Below, in pieces: positions 2,186 through 52,630 of a DNA stretch of 64,000 nt. Numbering within the stretch: the first letter of the stretch is position 1; each line of letters opens with the position of its first letter. The notes under the pieces were generated by a model. It did not search any database. It worked only from the letters and a program-made list of their open reading frames with translations, and was not told the origin of the DNA. The position numbers and the translations under genes were made by a program. The stretch is from Nitrospirales bacterium LBB_01 (GTDB lineage: Bacteria > Nitrospirota > Thermodesulfovibrionia > Thermodesulfovibrionales > Magnetobacteriaceae): assembly GCA_004376055.2 (NCBI GenBank), contig CP049016.1:1426001-1490000 (forward strand), given 5' to 3'.

Positions 2186-3835
2186 TTATGTGTGTTGGTG
2201 TTTTGAATCGTAAAAACGTATAGCCTTAAACCCAAGACTTATCGGCACTTTATAATCGGCCTTTTTATGGTTTCCTATATGCAGAATTCTCTCAGGTAAG
2301 AGTTTTTCTGAAAACAATACATGTTTAAACAGGTTGCCAGAAATCTTACTCAAACCCTTTTCAGATGACACGTACAAACATTTAAAAACTCCGGCTAATG
2401 ATTTCAACCCCAGAATCTCCCACAATATATCCTTGTCAAGATACATGTCAGAGACGGCTATAATTTTTTTATCCTTAGACTGTATCCATTTAAACAAAGG
2501 TACTATGCCGTTTTTTAAGGAAATCGTCTCATTTTCAGCTATGATTTCAAAGGTTATTATTTTGTTAACCAGCCTCTCATCAAGTCTGCCAAGAATTTGC
2601 CTTGACATATCCTGCACAATTGCTCTGTAGGAACACTCATAATCTGCACCGGCATTTAGAGAGGATTGTCTGTGAGTTGACTCTATATTGTTTCTGATAG
2701 TGGAGATTTCCAGAGCTGTTGCATCTATACCGCAGGTGTCTCTTAGATGTTTTGAAATTCGCTCCGATACAACGGATTTAACACGCTCCGATTGTTCTGC
2801 AAATCTTTCAAAAACTGTATCACACAGATTAAAGGAGACAAGGTCAACGTCTGAGATGAATGATTCTATCCCGGCTTTCAGAGATTCTATATCTTTTACC
2901 GTCAAGCACTTTTTCTCCTTAAAGGAGCGCAGAGTGAGAAATTTACCGAGCCTGTGGCTAACTGAATCTCTTATTACATATCGCTCTCTAAGCAGCCGTG
3001 CCGCATACTCTTCATATCCAACACGCTGGGACTTAATACCGTAAGTCATTTCCTTAAGATGGTCTAAAAATGGTGATATTTCCTCCCCAAAAATATACTT
3101 AATAGTCTCCGTAACAAGCTCATAAGCCTCAATATGTGCGCTTACAGTATCAGAAAGAATTGTGTTTTTCCCGTGCATTCTGTAAAACAGGAGTTCAGTG
3201 TCAACAAGAAAACGAAATTTACTCTCATCCCGCCTCATTGCTCTTATGGCAAATTCGTAATCAAGTACGTACCTAAGATGAGTGAGCGTGCCTATTTCGT
3301 CAAAAAGAGTCCGTCGTATAAAAAAATTAGATGTGCTTATGGTGTAATTGCCTATTAAGATGGCTCTAAGCGAGGATTTATTGCTTCGATAGGTGTTTTT
3401 TAGTTTTTCGTACCACTTGACCCATGGTTGAGCCGGGTCTGATATTACGTTTGACTCAGCATCAATCAAAGTGATGGCAGTGACCACAAAATCAAGTCCT
3501 TCTGTTTTTGCTCTGTGAAGCAAAACCTCAAGGCGGTTGCAATAAAAGACGTCGTCAGAGTTAATGATAGCCACGAAATCGCCACGTGAAAGTGAAATCC
3601 CCTTATTTATAGCATCATGTGAGCCGCCGTTTTCCTGATAATAGTATCTGATACGAGGGTCGTTGTATTTTTTTATGACATCCTCTGTGCCGTCTGTAGA
3701 GCCGTCATTTACGATTATCAGCTCAAAGTTTTTAAAGCTCTGCAGCAGCACACTTTCTATTGCATCCGCCACATACATTTCGTGGTTATAAGCCGGCATA
3801 ACCACGCTTATTTCTGGTCTGTTTGTCTCTGTCAT
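2186..3835 (-). CDS. Family 2 glycosyltransferase fused to a HAD-like domain
   Basis: Residues 8-235 form a GT-A family 2 glycosyltransferase: VVMPAYNHE at the N-terminus, VNDGSTDGT at 42-50, the metal-binding NSDD at 92-95 and LDYEFAIRA near 191. Residues 330-549 match the HAD-like domain often attached to such transferases: VSFNLCDT (334-341), VSDMYLD (461-467), lysines near 493-497, and HIGNHKKAD (519-527). In that family the first motif is usually SFDIFDT and the last HIGDxxxxD; here both aspartates are asparagine, so phosphatase activity is doubtful. The sugar donor and acceptor cannot be told; surface polysaccharide synthesis is the likely setting. It lies one base after its paralogue and was probably created by tandem duplication. 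Confidence 0.85.
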   Translation of the reverse strand: MTETNRPEISVVMPAYNHEMYVADAIESVLLQSFKNFELIIVNDGSTDGTEDVIKKYNDPRIRYYYQENGGSHDAINKGISLSRGDFVAIINSDDVFYCNRLEVLLHRAKTEGLDFVVTAITLIDAESNVISDPAQPWVKWYEKLKNTYRSNKSSLRAILIGNYTISTSNFFIRRTLFDEIGTLTHLRYVLDYEFAIRAMRRDESKFRFLVDTELLFYRMHGKNTILSDTVSAHIEAYELVTETIKYIFGEEISPFLDHLKEMTYGIKSQRVGYEEYAARLLRERYVIRDSVSHRLGKFLTLRSFKEKKCLTVKDIESLKAGIESFISDVDLVSFNLCDTVFERFAEQSERVKSVVSERISKHLRDTCGIDATALEISTIRNNIESTHRQSSLNAGADYECSYRAIVQDMSRQILGRLDERLVNKIITFEIIAENETISLKNGIVPLFKWIQSKDKKIIAVSDMYLDKDILWEILGLKSLAGVFKCLYVSSEKGLSKISGNLFKHVLFSEKLLPERILHIGNHKKADYKVPISLGFKAIRFYDSKHQHT

Positions 3836-3836
3836 A

Positions 3837-4763
3837 TCAGGGAAGTTTTAGAACACGTGCAACTGTCTTAAGCAGTTTAAAAAGAGTGGTGCCTGGTTTT
3901 ATGTATATTTTTAATATCTTTCTTAGTGTAATATTTCTATCATAACTACCGCTTCCTGCTTTAATACCGAAGGTCATATCTTTAAGATGATCTAAAAATG
4001 GAGACAACCCCTCGCCAAAGACGTGTTTCATAGTTTCTGTTACCAATTCATAATCCTCATTATATGCGCCTACGGTATCTGAAAGAATTGTGTTCTTTCC
4101 GTGTAAACGATACAAGAGGTGTTCCTCGTCAACAAGAAAGCGAAATCTCTTCTCATCACGTTTCATTGCTCTTATGGCAAATTCATAATCAAGAACGTAC
4201 TTAAGATTACTGAGTGTACCTATTTCGTCAAAAAGAGTGCGTTTTACAAAAAAGTTGGAGGTACTGATTGTATAATTACCGAGTAAAATGGCTTTAAGCG
4301 GCGATTTATAGTTTCTATAGATATTCTTTATTTTCTCGTAACCCATAATCCACGGATGGTTTGTGTCTGTTATTATGTTTGAATCAGCATCAATCAGAGT
4401 GACGGCGGTGACAACAAAATCAAGCCCTTCAGTTTTTGCTCTGTGAAGCAGTACCTCAAGACGATCGCAGTAGAAGGCATCGTCTGAGTTGATGATAGCC
4501 ACATAGTCACCCCTTGAATGCAAAATCCCCTTGTTTATAGCATCGTGTGAGCCGCCGTTTTTCTGGTAATAATAGCGTATGCGAGGATCGTTGTATTTTT
4601 TAATGACATCCTCTGTGCCGTCTGTAGAGCCGTCATTTACTATTATCAGTTCAAAGTTTTTAAATGTCTGTGACAGCACACTGTCTATCGCATCAGCTAC
4701 GTACTGCTCGTGGTTATAAGCCGGCATTACTACACTTATTTCTGGTCTGTTTTTATATTTCAT
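3837..4763 (-). CDS. Family 2 glycosyltransferase, paralogue of the next gene
   Basis: A 308-residue GT-A glycosyltransferase with VVMPAYNHE (11-19), VNDGSTDGT, NSDD and LDYEFAIRA motifs. Its first 270 or so residues are nearly superimposable on those of the downstream gene, including long identical runs around the nucleotide-binding loop. It lacks the HAD-like extension and instead ends in a short basic, hydrophobic tail (KILKIYIKPGTTLFKLLKTV), which could be a membrane-association helix. The two genes are one base apart and co-oriented, so they are surely co-transcribed. Likely role: transfer of a sugar in surface glycan assembly; the specificity is unknown. Confidence 0.88.
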   Translation of the reverse strand: MKYKNRPEISVVMPAYNHEQYVADAIDSVLSQTFKNFELIIVNDGSTDGTEDVIKKYNDPRIRYYYQKNGGSHDAINKGILHSRGDYVAIINSDDAFYCDRLEVLLHRAKTEGLDFVVTAVTLIDADSNIITDTNHPWIMGYEKIKNIYRNYKSPLKAILLGNYTISTSNFFVKRTLFDEIGTLSNLKYVLDYEFAIRAMKRDEKRFRFLVDEEHLLYRLHGKNTILSDTVGAYNEDYELVTETMKHVFGEGLSPFLDHLKDMTFGIKAGSGSYDRNITLRKILKIYIKPGTTLFKLLKTVARVLKLP

Positions 4764-27347: not shown

Positions 27348-27547
27348 TGTTTCACCGTTTCTATAGCCTGTTTAATTTGCTTTTCCTGATAAGGTTTAGC
27401 GTCATCGCCTGACCTCCCACTTATAGTCACTGCTCCAGCATACCTGATATGTGCATATTTACGATGTGATCCTTTACCGCCACCCAAAATTTCATAGAAC
27501 CCTGCCTCTAAAAGCTCATTAATAAGCTCCCTGACCTTCTTTGCCAT
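27344..27547 (-). CDS. hicA: HicA-like toxin (mRNA interferase)
   Basis: At 67 residues this has the HicA double-stranded-RNA-binding-like fold: KVRELINELLEAGFYE, then GGGKGSHRKYAH with the catalytic His in GSHRKY. HicA toxins cut mRNAs until bound by HicB. It is the promoter-proximal gene of the pair and overlaps hicB by four bases. The pair lies directly next to a small mobile element (27607-27914), which begins 60 bases upstream of its start. Confidence 0.85.
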   Translation of the reverse strand: MAKKVRELINELLEAGFYEILGGGKGSHRKYAHIRYAGAVTISGRSGDDAKPYQEKQIKQAIETVKQ

Positions 27548-27606
27548 TAATCACAATTATAGCACGATTCAATATTTCGCGAATATTTTTTTTCTTACAG
27601 TTCTGG

Positions 27607-27914
27607 CAGGGCAAACGCATTAGAAAAAATATTGTTGTTAACGCTTGGTTTCTTGGGCGAGATTGCCCTCCCCTGAAGGGGATTCCCCTTGTCGCTATCG
27701 CTTCTCGCAATGACAAATAAAAAAAACGCTCTACGCAGCCTTCGTAAACCATAAACGACTCTAAGATAAACAAACAAGCCCTTGTTGTCATTGCGAACCC
27801 ACGCAGTGGGTGTGGCAATCCCGTCCCATGCACACACTTGCGAATCCTTTCAGTTCCTTATTTTAAGAATGCGCACCCTTTTGGGACATTGAGAGCTCTA
27901 ATGCGTTCGCCCTG
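27607..27914. mobile_element. 308-bp MITE-like element with TIRs and target duplication
   Basis: The ends are CAGGGCAAACGCATTAG (27607-27623) and, inverted, CTAATGCGTTCGCCCTG (27898-27914), matching at 16 of 17 positions. Both ends are flanked by the identical 10-mer ACAGTTCTGG (27597-27606 and 27915-27924), a target-site duplication. There is no transposase frame, so it is non-autonomous. A 10-bp duplication is compatible with IS4-type transposases. The interior carries REP-like inverted blocks ending in CGCAATGACAA. It inserted between hicA and tyrS. Confidence 0.85.
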
Positions 27915-47531: not shown

Positions 47532-49244
47532 ATGGACACAGACACTAAAGAGCCAATAGATGACCTTGACGACTTATTTGTTGATGAAACAGAGGGTGAG
47601 TTAAAGACAGCAAAAGATAAGTGGAAAGTGATTATAGTTGACGATGAGCCGGGCGTGCATGACGCAACTATTCTTAGCTTAATGGATGTCGTGTTTGATG
47701 ACAAGGAAATCATTTTTTTGCAGGCCTACTCTGGAACTGAAGCAAAAACCCTTATTGAAAACAATCCCGACAGTGCTGTTATGCTCCTTGATGTTGTCAT
47801 GGAAACTGATGACGCCGGTCTTCAGGTAGTAAAACATATTCGTAATGAACTGAATAATAATCTTGTCCGTATAATTCTAAGAACCGGTCAACCGGGACAG
47901 GCGCCCGAGGACAAGGTCATCATGCAGTATGAAATCAACGACTATAAGTCAAAAAATGAACTTACCAAGCAGAAACTATTTACCACAATGGTCTCAGCCC
48001 TGCGTGACTATAGAAATCTGGTCACCATTGACGGCACAAAAAGAGGACTTGAACAGATTATAAACGCATTTCCCACTCTTTTTGAACTTCAGTCAATGGA
48101 TGATATTATCTCAGGTATTTTGACTCAGCTGTCCTCGCTGTTGAGGCTTGACGAGGGTTCGGTGTATCATCTGGACTCATCCTTTGTTGCAAACAAGAGC
48201 TCAAAGACTATAACTATAGTCAAAGGTACCGGAGCTTATGGGCAGCTTATTGGCAAACCAGCAAAAGATGTGTTAGAGCCTGCTAAGTATGAACTTCTTC
48301 TTTGTGCCGAAACAGAGCAAAGGAACATTTTTACCGGTAACTCTTGTGTGGTTTATTTTAGAAATAAAACAAACCTCTATAACATGGTCTATATACGCAG
48401 TCACAGGCAGCTTAATGAGATAGACAAAAACATGGTAGAAATATTCTGTAACAACATCTCTATGGCTTTTGAAAACATAGAAAAACACAAAATCCAGGAA
48501 TCCATGAAACTGGCAAAAGATATTCAGATGGGTATGCTGCCTGTAAATTTCCCAGACATCATGGAGCATGGAATTGACCTGTATGCTTTCATGCAGCCTG
48601 CACGGGAGGTTGGAGGAGACCTGTATGATTTCTTTTTTATCAACGACGCCCTCATGTGCTTTGTAATTGGGGATGTGACCGACAAGGGAGTTCCAGCAGC
48701 GTTCTTTATGGCTGTCACAAAGACGCTAATTCGTGCTGTTGCCAAAAGTTACACCGATACCGGTGAGATTCTCCGGTTAGTCAACAACGATTTGTGCAGA
48801 GATAACGAAAAGTCCATGTTCGTAACGCTTTTTATTGGAATTATAGACACAAAAACCGGCGTGTGCTCCTACAGTAACGGCGGACATAACCCTCCCTTCA
48901 TAGTCAGGCACTCTGGAGAAATTAAACCGCTTGAGCTTAGCGAGGGAATTCCCGCAGGCATTATGGAGGACTCCGAGTACAAATCCGATGAGTTAACTTT
49001 TGCCGCAGGAGACGCCATTTTCCTATACACAGACGGCGTCACTGAGGCTATGGACACAGAGAACAGGATTTTTGACGATGACAGGCTTATCGCAGTGCTT
49101 AGTAAAAATAGGGGGAAATCGTCAAAAACTATCGTAGAAGAAGTTGTCAGCGCACTTTCAGAGTTTACAACCGGTGCGGAGCAATCCGATGACATCACTA
49201 TGTTGTGTTTTAATTATAAGCCTGACCCCAAATCCAACTTATAA
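47532..49244 (+). CDS. Response regulator fused to a PP2C (SpoIIE-type) phosphatase
   Basis: In 570 residues: an acidic N-terminal leader, a receiver domain (about 33-150: IVDDEPGVHD, phosphoacceptor in MLLDVVMETDD), a DUF3369-like GAF-related middle (about 165-320), a coiled coil, and a SpoIIE/RsbU PP2C domain (about 325-565: AKDIQMGMLP, PAREVGGDLYDFF, VIGDVTDKGVPAA, YSNGGHNPPF, LFLYTDGVTEAMD). It would dephosphorylate an anti-anti-sigma or similar partner when phosphorylated; the partner is not adjacent. A copy of its 3' end occurs at 50458. Confidence 0.94.
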   Translation: MDTDTKEPIDDLDDLFVDETEGELKTAKDKWKVIIVDDEPGVHDATILSLMDVVFDDKEIIFLQAYSGTEAKTLIENNPDSAVMLLDVVMETDDAGLQVVKHIRNELNNNLVRIILRTGQPGQAPEDKVIMQYEINDYKSKNELTKQKLFTTMVSALRDYRNLVTIDGTKRGLEQIINAFPTLFELQSMDDIISGILTQLSSLLRLDEGSVYHLDSSFVANKSSKTITIVKGTGAYGQLIGKPAKDVLEPAKYELLLCAETEQRNIFTGNSCVVYFRNKTNLYNMVYIRSHRQLNEIDKNMVEIFCNNISMAFENIEKHKIQESMKLAKDIQMGMLPVNFPDIMEHGIDLYAFMQPAREVGGDLYDFFFINDALMCFVIGDVTDKGVPAAFFMAVTKTLIRAVAKSYTDTGEILRLVNNDLCRDNEKSMFVTLFIGIIDTKTGVCSYSNGGHNPPFIVRHSGEIKPLELSEGIPAGIMEDSEYKSDELTFAAGDAIFLYTDGVTEAMDTENRIFDDDRLIAVLSKNRGKSSKTIVEEVVSALSEFTTGAEQSDDITMLCFNYKPDPKSNL

Positions 49245-49385
49245 AAGAAGTCAAGACCGCAGTAAGTTTGAAAAATTACTTGACTTATTCGTGTTAGTTT
49301 GGCTAAATTGTTACCGATACTGTGCGTTGTATTGTATAAAAATAATGGGTTTTGACGAGCTCATAATTTATTGGGGGAGGTAACT

Positions 49386-50426
49386 ATGCAAAAGGATATG
49401 CACTTTTACGGAGTTTACGCCTTAGCGCGTGCTGCAGGTTTAGGTTTGGGGGAGGCTTTTACAGTCGCCCATTCCTCGCAATTTGTCGATGATGCTGTTG
49501 ACAGAGATATGCTTAACAACGACTTGGGGAAAGCAGTTATTTCTTTAATGACAAGCCATAGGGCGATTGATTCCGAAAATTCTAACGATTATGATCAATG
49601 GCATGTTTGGGTGCCGTTTCATTTTTTACCTGGTAATGTCGGTAACTCTTTTAATGAAAAAGTTATTTGCAGAAAAAACAGTATCCCTGCACATAAGATA
49701 CTACAAAACGCTCTTTCTAAGCACGACTCACCATTTTGGCCTCACTTGATAGGGGTCACGGCACACGTATATGCCGATACATTTTCCCACTTCGGCTTTC
49801 TTGGAATAAGCTCCGATTGGAACAAAGCTGATGAGGCAACAATCAACATAAATGTGCAGTCACCCAATATTTTGCAGTATATTAATGAGAAATTTGAAAC
49901 ATTCAAAGCTAAATTCGCCGGAGTATTTGCTTCATTAGTTCCGGTTGGGCATGGTTCCGTTGAAACATTACCCGACAGGCCGTATTTAAAGTGGAGTTTT
50001 AAATACTTAACCGGTAAACACATGAGCGAGGATGAAAACAGAAATAATCAGGATAGTTTTTTAGAAGGCTGTAAGTGTTTATATGAGTTTTTTTGTGACT
50101 ACGTTAATATCAGCGGCAGAGGCGACAGAAATAAGAGAAAACCATGGGGTGATATAAAAAGTGATATTAAAACAATAATAGACACTGAGGGAATGTTGTC
50201 TGAAAGAATCGATTTATGGAAAGACAAAATAAGAGCTAATGTTTTTTGTGCTTCTGAACCAGCAGATCTATCTTTAAATTACGATGAGAATATATGGAAA
50301 ATCGGTAATCTTTCTCCTACCTATCAATATAAAGATGACATATTGCATTTTATAAATGCGGCCAGAACTCACAAAAACTATGTTCTTTATGAGCTGTTAC
50401 CTCAATTGGATTTAGTTATTACATGA
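49386..50426 (+). CDS. DUF6765-like protein of unknown function
   Basis: A 346-residue soluble protein beginning MQKDMHFYGVYALARAAG, resembling proteins annotated DUF6765. Conserved-looking His/Asp clusters (HSSQFVDDAVD, QWHVWVPFHF, GVTAHVYADTFSHFGF) recall metal-binding helical phospholipase-C-like folds, but this is only an impression. ATG 49386 follows GGGGGAGG at 49373-49380. It begins an accessory stretch between the phosphatase gene and rpsB. The catalytic function is not known. Confidence 0.65.
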   Translation: MQKDMHFYGVYALARAAGLGLGEAFTVAHSSQFVDDAVDRDMLNNDLGKAVISLMTSHRAIDSENSNDYDQWHVWVPFHFLPGNVGNSFNEKVICRKNSIPAHKILQNALSKHDSPFWPHLIGVTAHVYADTFSHFGFLGISSDWNKADEATININVQSPNILQYINEKFETFKAKFAGVFASLVPVGHGSVETLPDRPYLKWSFKYLTGKHMSEDENRNNQDSFLEGCKCLYEFFCDYVNISGRGDRNKRKPWGDIKSDIKTIIDTEGMLSERIDLWKDKIRANVFCASEPADLSLNYDENIWKIGNLSPTYQYKDDILHFINAARTHKNYVLYELLPQLDLVIT

Positions 50427-50457: not shown

Positions 50458-50595
50458 GCAGTGCTTAGTAAAAACCACGGCAAGCCTTCAAAAACCATCG
50501 TAGAAGATGTTGTAAGCTCGCTTTCTGAGTTTACGACTGATGCGGCGCAGTCGGATGACATCACTATGTTGTATTTTAATTATATGCCTGATTAA
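50458..50595 (+). pseudogene. Duplicated 3' fragment of the PP2C phosphatase gene
   Basis: This copies the last 45 or so codons of the gene at 47532-49244. Its 46 codons read AVLSKNHGKPSKTIVEDVVS... up to DDITMLYFNYMPD and stop, against AVLSKNRGKSSKTIVEEVVS... DDITMLCFNYKPD (49092-49232). There is no start, so it is a remnant. The DUF6765-like gene lies between original and copy, implying a partial duplication or insertion of the new gene into a duplicated locus. Confidence 0.9.
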
Positions 50596-50623
50596 AGGTA
50601 CTATACTTAGGAAATAAACATTT

Positions 50624-51346
50624 TTATTCAAAAACTAAATCGATGCAATCTAAAAAGTAGTTCCAGCTACTCACTTTATTTCTATATTCATTGTTGCAGC
50701 ATAAATCAGTGTAGTCTAAATTATAAGCGATTTTGTACGAGTCGTCCTCATGCTTTCCATATTTTTTGCCGCATAAATGATAGATTTTATCAATAATATT
50801 TGTAGGATGTCCGTATGATTCAGGATTATCGTTGATTAAATCATATCCCAATTCGTTCTTGATAAAACTAGGGATCAAAGCACCATCAATTTTACAAAAC
50901 ATTTTGTAATCCATCAGAAACCACGCTTCTGTTTCCATTATTGCAAGAACATATTTTATTTTGTCATAAGAATCTTTGTTCTTGAATAGCTTTTTAAAAG
51001 CTTCTATAATTTTTTTCTTTTCTTCTTTTTTTATTTTTTCCCCATCTATTTTTACTCTGTATAGATCATGAAGGCCAACGATATAGTCATATCCATTATC
51101 TTTAATCAAGGACTCTGCTTTTTCTTTAATTTTTGATGTGACATTGCTGTCTCCGCCTACATCATAAATTCGAACCTCATATTTAGCATTTGGATTCTCT
51201 CTCATAATAACTTTTTCACTCATGTACTGACTTATATACTTGTGCCGTTCTAATTTTAAATTATGATAACCCATATAAGCTAACAGAAATTGCTCAACAA
51301 AAATCGCTTCAGTTTGTCCCTCAACAAAAAAGTATATTTTTTTCAA
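50624..51346 (-). CDS. TOPRIM/DUF4276-like protein, partner of ATPase
   Basis: The 240-residue product starts KKIYFFVEGQTEAIFVEQFL, the Glu-containing first motif of TOPRIM-like DUF4276 proteins (Glu9). Later blocks are DYIVGLHDLY (Asp94) and VLAIMETEAWFLMD (about 133-146), like the ME-W-AD block of that family; the DxD is not obvious. It overlaps its upstream ATPase by four bases (ATGA), so the two are translated as a pair. Such ATPase-TOPRIM pairs include OLD-like, PARIS and AbiL/RloB systems that act in phage defence. It is AT-rich compared with the flanking core genes. Confidence 0.7.
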   Translation of the reverse strand: MKKIYFFVEGQTEAIFVEQFLLAYMGYHNLKLERHKYISQYMSEKVIMRENPNAKYEVRIYDVGGDSNVTSKIKEKAESLIKDNGYDYIVGLHDLYRVKIDGEKIKKEEKKKIIEAFKKLFKNKDSYDKIKYVLAIMETEAWFLMDYKMFCKIDGALIPSFIKNELGYDLINDNPESYGHPTNIIDKIYHLCGKKYGKHEDDSYKIAYNLDYTDLCCNNEYRNKVSSWNYFLDCIDLVFE

Positions 51347-52446
51347 TCATTGCCCCATTCTTTGTACATTTTTCCGGAAAGAATATCAAAGTTATTTAAA
51401 CCGGTAAGCACAAATTCATCAAATGCTTCTCTGTTATTTTTATAATTAAAAGACTCAACTGTATGTCCGGTTCTCTCCAGCACATTTAAAGAAGTAATAT
51501 ACACGGCATTTATTAAAAATCTGTCATTGGATGCCGCAATTAGCTGTATTTTCGAGTCCTTCAGCTTTTCCATAATAAGTTTCGTCAGCTTTGAAGACCT
51601 TTCAAAGTCTAACCCCTCACCAATATCGTCTATTACAAGGGTTAAGGGCGTATTCTTTATCAAAAATGCTTCAACTATAATAATTGTTGAGAGTGCACGG
51701 AGCATACCCGGTGACATATCATGCTGATTGGTAGAAAGTTTTAAACTCTCCTCCTCAACGTATATATAAGGGTCTCCATATGGACTGTTAAAGATGTCAA
51801 TGTCTTTTATGTTATAACCAATACTTACAAAGTCTGATAACAGTGCACTCTTCTTATCGGTCTTTATAATTATTTCTAAACATGATATTACCAACTCCTG
51901 ATTAAATCTCTCAGGGGTGTTTTTATACATAAAAAAATGTGGGCTAAACTGTGTAAAGTTTAAGAAAAGAAAATCATCTGCCCATGACCACAGTTTTTCC
52001 AGAAATGGAAATTCTTTTTTATCACGGCGCACGTTTACCGTTAACTCTTTTTCAGGAGGTGAGAAATCTATCATTTCCTCGCCTTCAGAAGGAGATATTT
52101 TCCCGGTATCTTTACTTCTGTTTATTAATAATTTCTCACCGATTTCTAACTTCTCCAGTTCTATTTGTTCTTCTGATAGCTTTAATGTATATTCATATTT
52201 AACTTGTGGGTTAATTTCAGTATCTAAAAATTCAATATACCACGACCGTTGGGCTTTGCTCATAAAACTACTATAATTGATTGATTTCATGATACATGAC
52301 TTCAAATCCAAAATAACTTGCAAAAGTCTGGTCTTACCAGTTGCATTCAGACCGATAATTAGATTATGCACACCCAAATCAGTGTTTTTTAATTCCCATT
52401 GTCTGCCAAAAACTGTTTCACTATATTCAAGTTTTGTTATAATCAT
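51343..52446 (-). CDS. ABC/SMC-type ATPase (AAA_21-like) of a two-gene module
   Basis: ATG 52446 follows GGAGAGG at about 52455; an in-frame ATG at 52467 is less likely. The 367-residue protein has Walker A GLNATGKT (32-39), a helical middle, an ABC-like signature region MSPGMLRALS (244-253), Walker B LVIDDIGEGLD (270-280) and an AASND switch block (304-308). This is the single-polypeptide AAA_21/OLD-type ATPase that often partners a TOPRIM protein. It diverges from rpsB and is followed by the TOPRIM-like gene. AT-rich. Confidence 0.82.
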   Translation of the reverse strand: MIITKLEYSETVFGRQWELKNTDLGVHNLIIGLNATGKTRLLQVILDLKSCIMKSINYSSFMSKAQRSWYIEFLDTEINPQVKYEYTLKLSEEQIELEKLEIGEKLLINRSKDTGKISPSEGEEMIDFSPPEKELTVNVRRDKKEFPFLEKLWSWADDFLFLNFTQFSPHFFMYKNTPERFNQELVISCLEIIIKTDKKSALLSDFVSIGYNIKDIDIFNSPYGDPYIYVEEESLKLSTNQHDMSPGMLRALSTIIIVEAFLIKNTPLTLVIDDIGEGLDFERSSKLTKLIMEKLKDSKIQLIAASNDRFLINAVYITSLNVLERTGHTVESFNYKNNREAFDEFVLTGLNNFDILSGKMYKEWGND

Positions 52447-52630
52447 TTCCTCTCCTGTATTCAACAAACAGTTACTTCAATTATTAGATGACTATAACAT
52501 ATTTTTATAGGGCATGTAATGGATGTTGTCCATGGCTATTCACCTGTTTTAACACGGGCATTTTAAAAAAAACTTACTCCCATTGAAAAAACCATAATAA
52601 GTATGTTACAGTAGCTGGGTTAAAAACGCA

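Follow-up and report, generated by a model that had tools for sequence, protein, structure and literature searches.

The two genes described here lie on the minus strand of the window (the whole 64-kb stretch of DNA analysed). The upstream gene encodes an AAA_21/OLD-type ABC ATPase of 367 aa (51343..52446), a putative sensor/inhibitor subunit, and the downstream gene a DUF4276 TOPRIM-fold protein of 240 aa (50624..51346), a putative nuclease effector; both assignments are based on Pfam, PADLOC and AF2 models. The ATPase gene starts with ATG behind a Shine–Dalgarno sequence (AGGAGAGG), with the ribosome-binding site AGGAGAGGAA at 52447..52456 (minus strand), and occurs as a single copy in the genome (one 3.27-Mb contig). 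The DUF4276 gene starts with TTG and overlaps the stop of the ATPase gene by 4 bp (TTGA, 51343..51346, minus strand).

DNA homology to a genome of the same genus, G062 (L015:8354-10284, 81.5% identity), spans the whole mobile cassette of promoter and two genes (50617..52550, minus strand; 1.93 kb), and the leader of rpsB that is common to G062 and G198 resumes at window position 52565. The GC content of the cassette is 32.3% compared with 41.5% for the whole window, and GC was low in every copy compared (31.0% in G062 and 30.2% in G096, with surroundings of about 41-43%). The initial annotation had reported overlapping, AT-rich genes at 50624-52446, and both the two minus-strand ORFs with their 4-bp overlap and the base composition agree with this. 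In the upstream sequences of the cassettes, a −35-like element (TGGACA, 52527..52532) and a −10-like element (TATAAA, 52504..52509) were read on the minus strand, with the variants CTGACA/TATAAA in G062 and L041 and TTGACA/TATACT in G096. The spacer between them is 17 bp in all four cassettes (window, G062, L041 and G096), and these elements form a conserved, putative promoter. The rpsB-tsf-pyrH-frr operon begins 299 bp upstream of the ATPase start codon, and the other flanking genes encode QueH, a SpoIIE-type response regulator and a DUF6765 protein.

Mobility of the cassette within the genus

Within the genus of the window genome, the cassette occupies three different chromosomal sites. In the window genome it adjoins rpsB, whereas G062, G198 and L041 carry it next to a DUF4346 gene and G096 carries it between fusA and gatA. 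The corresponding empty sites were found reciprocally, i.e. the window genome has no cassette at the DUF4346 and gatA sites, and G062 and G198 have none at the gatA and rpsB sites. Synonymous divergence from G096 was 0.61 for the ATPase gene compared with 0.89-1.70 for rpsB, pyrH and the SpoIIE gene, while at the amino-acid level divergence from G096 was higher for the ATPase than for the products of the same three genes. This pattern fits exchange of the cassette within the genus. No integrase, transposase or recombinase gene is present between the homology-defined ends, which rules out an autonomous transposon. Integration linked to a tRNA gene was likewise ruled out, as the 64-kb window contains no tRNA gene and no Rfam match.

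The SpoIIE–rpsB junction is, as judged from gene content, a small variable site in the genus. The space between the SpoIIE gene and rpsB in G062 holds a CHASE2-domain gene (L035:4879-6048) instead of the DUF6765 gene and the cassette; this CHASE2-domain gene also lies upstream of rpsB in G198. The DUF6765 gene itself (49371-50426; PF20551, E=7.8e-81) has a weak resemblance to Zn-dependent phospholipase C; it is absent from the three same-genus genomes searched, but G104, a genome of the same order, has a tandem pair of such genes. The 3′ end of the SpoIIE/response-regulator gene (49092-49225) is repeated beyond the DUF6765 gene, at 50458-50591 (134 bp, 83.6% identical), and the DUF6765 gene looks to have been inserted together with this second copy of its target gene's end. 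An accessory island next to the ribosomal operon had been proposed initially: the rpsB operon does adjoin, but the supposed island consists of two separate insertions, the cassette and the unrelated DUF6765 gene. Elsewhere in the window, the products of two adjacent glycosyltransferase genes (2186-4763) are nearly identical at the N-terminus, which suggests that the genes were recently duplicated in tandem, and an ORF at 27519-27833 resembles translated dispersed-repeat sequence (LREAIATRG...) and not a gene.

An ABC ATPase and a DUF4276 protein with a predicted TOPRIM fold

The second protein matched DUF4276 (PF14103) in Pfam above the gathering threshold (E=2.7e-10); at E<=1, the only other Pfam match was a weak one to OLD-like_TOPRIM. 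Its best PADLOC match, by E-value only, was HEC-01B (PDLC04188; 1.1e-11, profile positions 12-177 of 230), and this model was matched by 46 of 69 DUF4276 relatives at 1e-5 (again by E-value, not by PADLOC's own cut-offs). HEC-01B was the sole PADLOC name matched among these 69 proteins. The AF2 model of the protein (pLDDT 93.7) gave its best structural matches to OLD (6nk8, Z 10.6; 6p74, Z 9.3) and PH0156 (2p62, Z 10.2), with PARIS AriB close behind (8ux9, Z 9.2; 8v46, Z 8.5) and the best unrelated fold at Z 7.4. Thus the DUF4276 protein is predicted to have a TOPRIM nuclease fold, closest to OLD and PARIS AriB, and the model resembles DNA-cleaving OLD no less than it does AriB.

The conserved residues among the relatives include those of a putative active site. 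E9, G10 and E13 are present in 68 of 69 sequences (E9 with one gap), and D94, E138, E140, P181 and K198 in all 69. In Burkholderia pseudomallei OLD, metal A is bound by E400, D455 and D457 and metal B by E404, T506 and E508, and the catalytic lysine is K562 (PMC6755086). Residues E9, E13, D94, E138, E140 and K198 of the DUF4276 protein follow the order of OLD E400, E404, D455, T506, E508 and K562, and together with secondary-structure positions this order suggests that they would map onto the OLD two-metal site. E138-x-E140 also parallels the D/E-x-E of P2 OLD and Cran1. The protein thus combines the fold and catalytic Glu of the TOPRIM superfamily with a departure at the DxD motif, which here reads D94-x-Y96 (D94 in 69/69; residue 96 is Y in 52 and F in 8). 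As DxD is replaced by DxY, full nuclease activity is not guaranteed; Cran1, an active OLD protein, likewise lacks DxD (L391/D393; PMC12796447).

The ATPase matched AAA_21 (PF13304) above gathering (E=1.5e-9) and, among PADLOC profiles, AbiLi (3.9e-18), AriA (9.5e-16, over the full profile) and HEC-01A (9.8e-7); the HEC-01A profile was matched by 62 of 71 ATPase relatives at 1e-5. The folds nearest its AF2 model (pLDDT 91.3) were Rad50, SMC, PtuA and AriA (Z 16-18.5; AriA structures, Z 16-17), and sequence-only PDB searches with the ATPase and DUF4276 alignments returned no useful relative. Walker A, the ABC signature and the D-loop are intact across the 71 aligned sequences, with G37, K38, G247, D273, L279 and D280 invariant and S245 present in 70. 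At the position of the catalytic Glu after Walker B, in turn, all 71 have Asp (Asp274), and at that of the H-loop His all have Asn (Asn307). From these two substitutions, we infer that hydrolysis would be slow, absent or switch-like. The stretches evolving fastest relative to congeners, residues 81-120 and 201-240, are candidate recognition surfaces.

The reading of these proteins in the initial annotation was largely borne out. The motifs that it quoted all occur in the two proteins, and it had placed the Walker A lysine (K38) and the TOPRIM glutamate (E9) correctly; to these can be added the ABC signature S245-x-G247-M and Walker B D273. Its OLD/PARIS-like architecture of ABC ATPase plus TOPRIM protein agrees with the HMMs, the structure models and the invariant active-site residues. 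Among the families that it had named for searching, DUF4276 and AAA_21 were found as above, but DUF4435 (AriB) gave no Pfam match at E<=1 in the partner; the PADLOC search that it had also suggested yielded the HEC-01B, AbiLi, AriA and HEC-01A matches. The statement that the second protein is not clearly any known one has to be revised, since it belongs to a named family, DUF4276/HEC-01B.

Pairing, distribution and genomic neighbourhoods

Relatives were collected by an alignment-based scan of genome contigs, which found at least 260, and the best 80 were kept. Of these, 79 had room for a downstream gene, and in 77 of the 79 loci a DUF4276 gene lies directly downstream of the ATPase gene in the same order; the remaining two loci, L075 and L115, have a solo ATPase. 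Spacing within these 77 pairs is tight: the genes overlap in 52, by exactly 4 bp in 39 of them, and are within 12 bp of each other in 65. The pairwise distances among the ATPases correlate with those among the DUF4276 proteins (r=0.85, host phylogeny not controlled for), which shows co-inheritance of the two.

Among the rows that went into the tree, the pair spans at least 12 phyla, and by ATPase gene the nearest named relatives among the matches listed are Nitrospirota. The ATPase tree required 15 phylum changes compared with a minimum of 11 and a shuffled mean of 40; so few changes indicate a long history of the family within several phyla and some transfer from one phylum to another. Prevalence is low, at about 2.5-4% of genomes, with clear matches in 5 of 198 Nitrospirota (single-sequence search) and strong matches in ∼8 of 198 genomes in the order of G210 (Bacteroidales) and ∼8 of 196 in that of G212 (Cyanobacteriota). 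For both genes, dN/dS relative to congeners was 0.18-0.34, indicating that they are kept functional under purifying selection, and this selection together with recurrence in at least 12 phyla sets the pair far above chance. A degraded copy was also seen (L045:10001-11831), with a stop right after the ATPase Walker B/D-loop and another within the DUF4276 frame.

Most genes adjoining the homologues are ordinary ones. One Bacteroidales clade has the pair at a fixed position next to gyrB and an AlkD-like gene, a placement that looks stable and counts against a role in defence, and in several cyanobacteria the pair adjoins a peroxiredoxin gene or a glgC-like gene (the latter judged from sequence). 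A comparison of PADLOC matches near the pair and far away (293 and 129 models matched, respectively, with <=2 proteins per listed model in both) revealed no clear enrichment for known defence genes, and is coarse because one helicase can match many models. The genes flanking the pair in the window rule out a defence island there.

Viral copies were recovered by an alignment-based search of IMG/VR, which gave ten contigs: on nine of them the pair is intact, and on the tenth it is truncated by the end of the contig. A single-sequence viral search was empty. On L190 and L192, the pair lies beside phage integrase and excisionase genes, and on L192 phage genes flank it on both sides. On L196, it is beside a phage repressor gene, and genes for a CII-like regulator and a P2-A-type replication protein lie close by. 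Tail, methyltransferase or packaging genes occur near the pair on L187, L188/L189, L191 and L194. Some of these copies are at prophage edges, and a few could be host flank. Two results count against a role in defence: a search of 50,697 annotated phages gave no match, and plasmids gave just two. In a plasmid record of Bacteroides finegoldii (L008:4935-6726), the pair lies within a cluster of capsular polysaccharide genes, flanked on one side by a tyrosine kinase gene and on the other by a gene with a sugar-transporter annotation.

Proposed function and relation to known defence systems

A candidate role in defence is supported by the mobility of the cassette, its presence on viral contigs and the PADLOC HEC-01B models; low prevalence, three sites in one genus, empty orthologous sites and low GC are accessory behaviour that we also count in its favour. 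We consider it fairly probable that the pair is a self-contained anti-phage module of the abortive-infection type that works like PARIS, with a sensor and a TOPRIM effector. The AriA hexamer of PARIS keeps three AriB sequestered until a phage protein such as Ocr frees AriB, which dimerises and cleaves tRNA (PMC12409363). The window pair is built from the same two types of component, arranged alike, so its mechanism is most likely PARIS-like in outline, and complex formation, sensing, trigger, substrate and protection are all inferred on this model. The ABC ATPase would bind ATP, form an oligomer and hold the TOPRIM protein in an inactive state. The fast-evolving surfaces would serve to sense either a phage product or a change caused by the phage, and the DUF4276 protein, released or rearranged, would cut nucleic acid with its two-metal site. 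The substrate may be host tRNA (as for AriB) or DNA (as for OLD), and cleavage would stop growth or phage replication. More tentatively, DUF4276 pairs may be a widespread sister class to PARIS in a dozen phyla and in prophages, with an ATPase that would bind ATP but barely hydrolyse it (invariant D274/N307), a TOPRIM effector whose metal site is modified (DxY), and a trigger and substrate unlike those of PARIS.

Part of the evidence could also be read as chromosome maintenance, in which a Rad50/SMC-like ATPase and a TOPRIM nickase would serve DNA repair or the cell cycle in the manner of Cran1, an OLD-family protein of Sulfolobales (PMC12796447). The Bacteroidales synteny with gyrB and an AlkD-like (DNA-alkylation-repair) gene, the ordinary neighbours of most homologues and an ATPase model equally close to Rad50/SMC and AriA/PtuA are consistent with such a housekeeping function. 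A core repair gene would, however, be expected to be near-universal in a clade, whereas the pair is sparse even in its home orders (about 2.5-4%), sits at different sites in sister species and is carried by viral contigs, so we regard this explanation as improbable. We give about the same low weight to selfish, toxin–antitoxin-like addiction, with a DUF4276 nuclease toxin curbed by the ATPase and phage protection absent or incidental. Its appeal lies in the compact unit of a promoter and two overlapping genes that is mobile without its own integrase, and in the solo ATPases L075 and L115; yet the pair is mainly chromosomal and almost absent from sequenced plasmids, a 367-aa ABC ATPase with divergent surfaces exceeds what an antitoxin needs, and the related ATPase/TOPRIM pairs of known function are antiviral (PMC12409363, PMC10568477).

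Within the favoured anti-phage reading, and overlapping with it in probability, the effector might instead cut invading DNA so that cells survive, i.e. OLD/Gabija-like restriction. TOPRIM domains of DNA-cleaving OLD proteins rank first among the structural matches, narrowly ahead of AriB, and E138-x-E140 resembles the D/E-x-E of P2 OLD and Cran1. These Z differences of <1 are ties, however, and two separate genes are the arrangement of PARIS, whereas OLD and GajA are fused; restriction is thus a rather unlikely version of the anti-phage reading.

DUF4276 has no assigned function in Pfam, and neither experiments on a DUF4276 protein nor any paper naming DUF4276 were found in the literature searched. 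The pair offers a compact construct of two genes whose active site is named, natural versions carried by prophages, and clear predictions derived from PARIS and OLD. If protective, it would be a second widespread split ATPase/TOPRIM defence besides PARIS.

Compared with known systems, the ATPase is close in fold to PtuA of Septu and retrons, but its partner is a TOPRIM protein and not an HNH nuclease, and there is no reverse transcriptase or msDNA; Septu was ruled out by the lack of an HNH partner. AbiLi of AbiL is the best PADLOC match of the ATPase, but the partner is DUF4276 with no Pfam match to RloB/AbiLii at E<=1, which rules out AbiL. As for OLD class 1/2 nucleases and Gabija GajA, the C-terminal domains of OLD are the closest to the DUF4276 model, and the order of metal-site residues is the same. 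In OLD class 1-3 and GajA, ATPase and TOPRIM are fused, whereas they are encoded by distinct ORFs here, both in the window and at the 77 paired loci among the best 80 of at least 260 relatives, and the window pair has no adjoining UvrD-type partner as in Gabija. Membership of fused OLD and Gabija was ruled out because the genes are not fused. PARIS shares with the pair separate genes for ABC ATPase and TOPRIM nuclease, with AriA and AriB among the close solved structures, and the window ATPase is, like AriA, a separate AAA/OLD ABC ATPase gene. The partner differs in having DxY instead of DxD and in being DUF4276 instead of DUF4435, and no PADLOC match to the AriB model was found among the 69 DUF4276 relatives; PARIS membership was therefore ruled out. 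The closest curated entry is PADLOC HEC-01, itself a predicted candidate system, which appeared in the literature found as software output only (PMC12724379). The two share the two-gene layout and a HEC-01B/DUF4276 partner; the window ATPase matches HEC-01A but scores higher with the AbiLi and AriA models. DUF4276/HEC-01B places the pair in this existing, computationally proposed candidate system, and protection by the pair would turn the HEC-01 candidate into a defined one.
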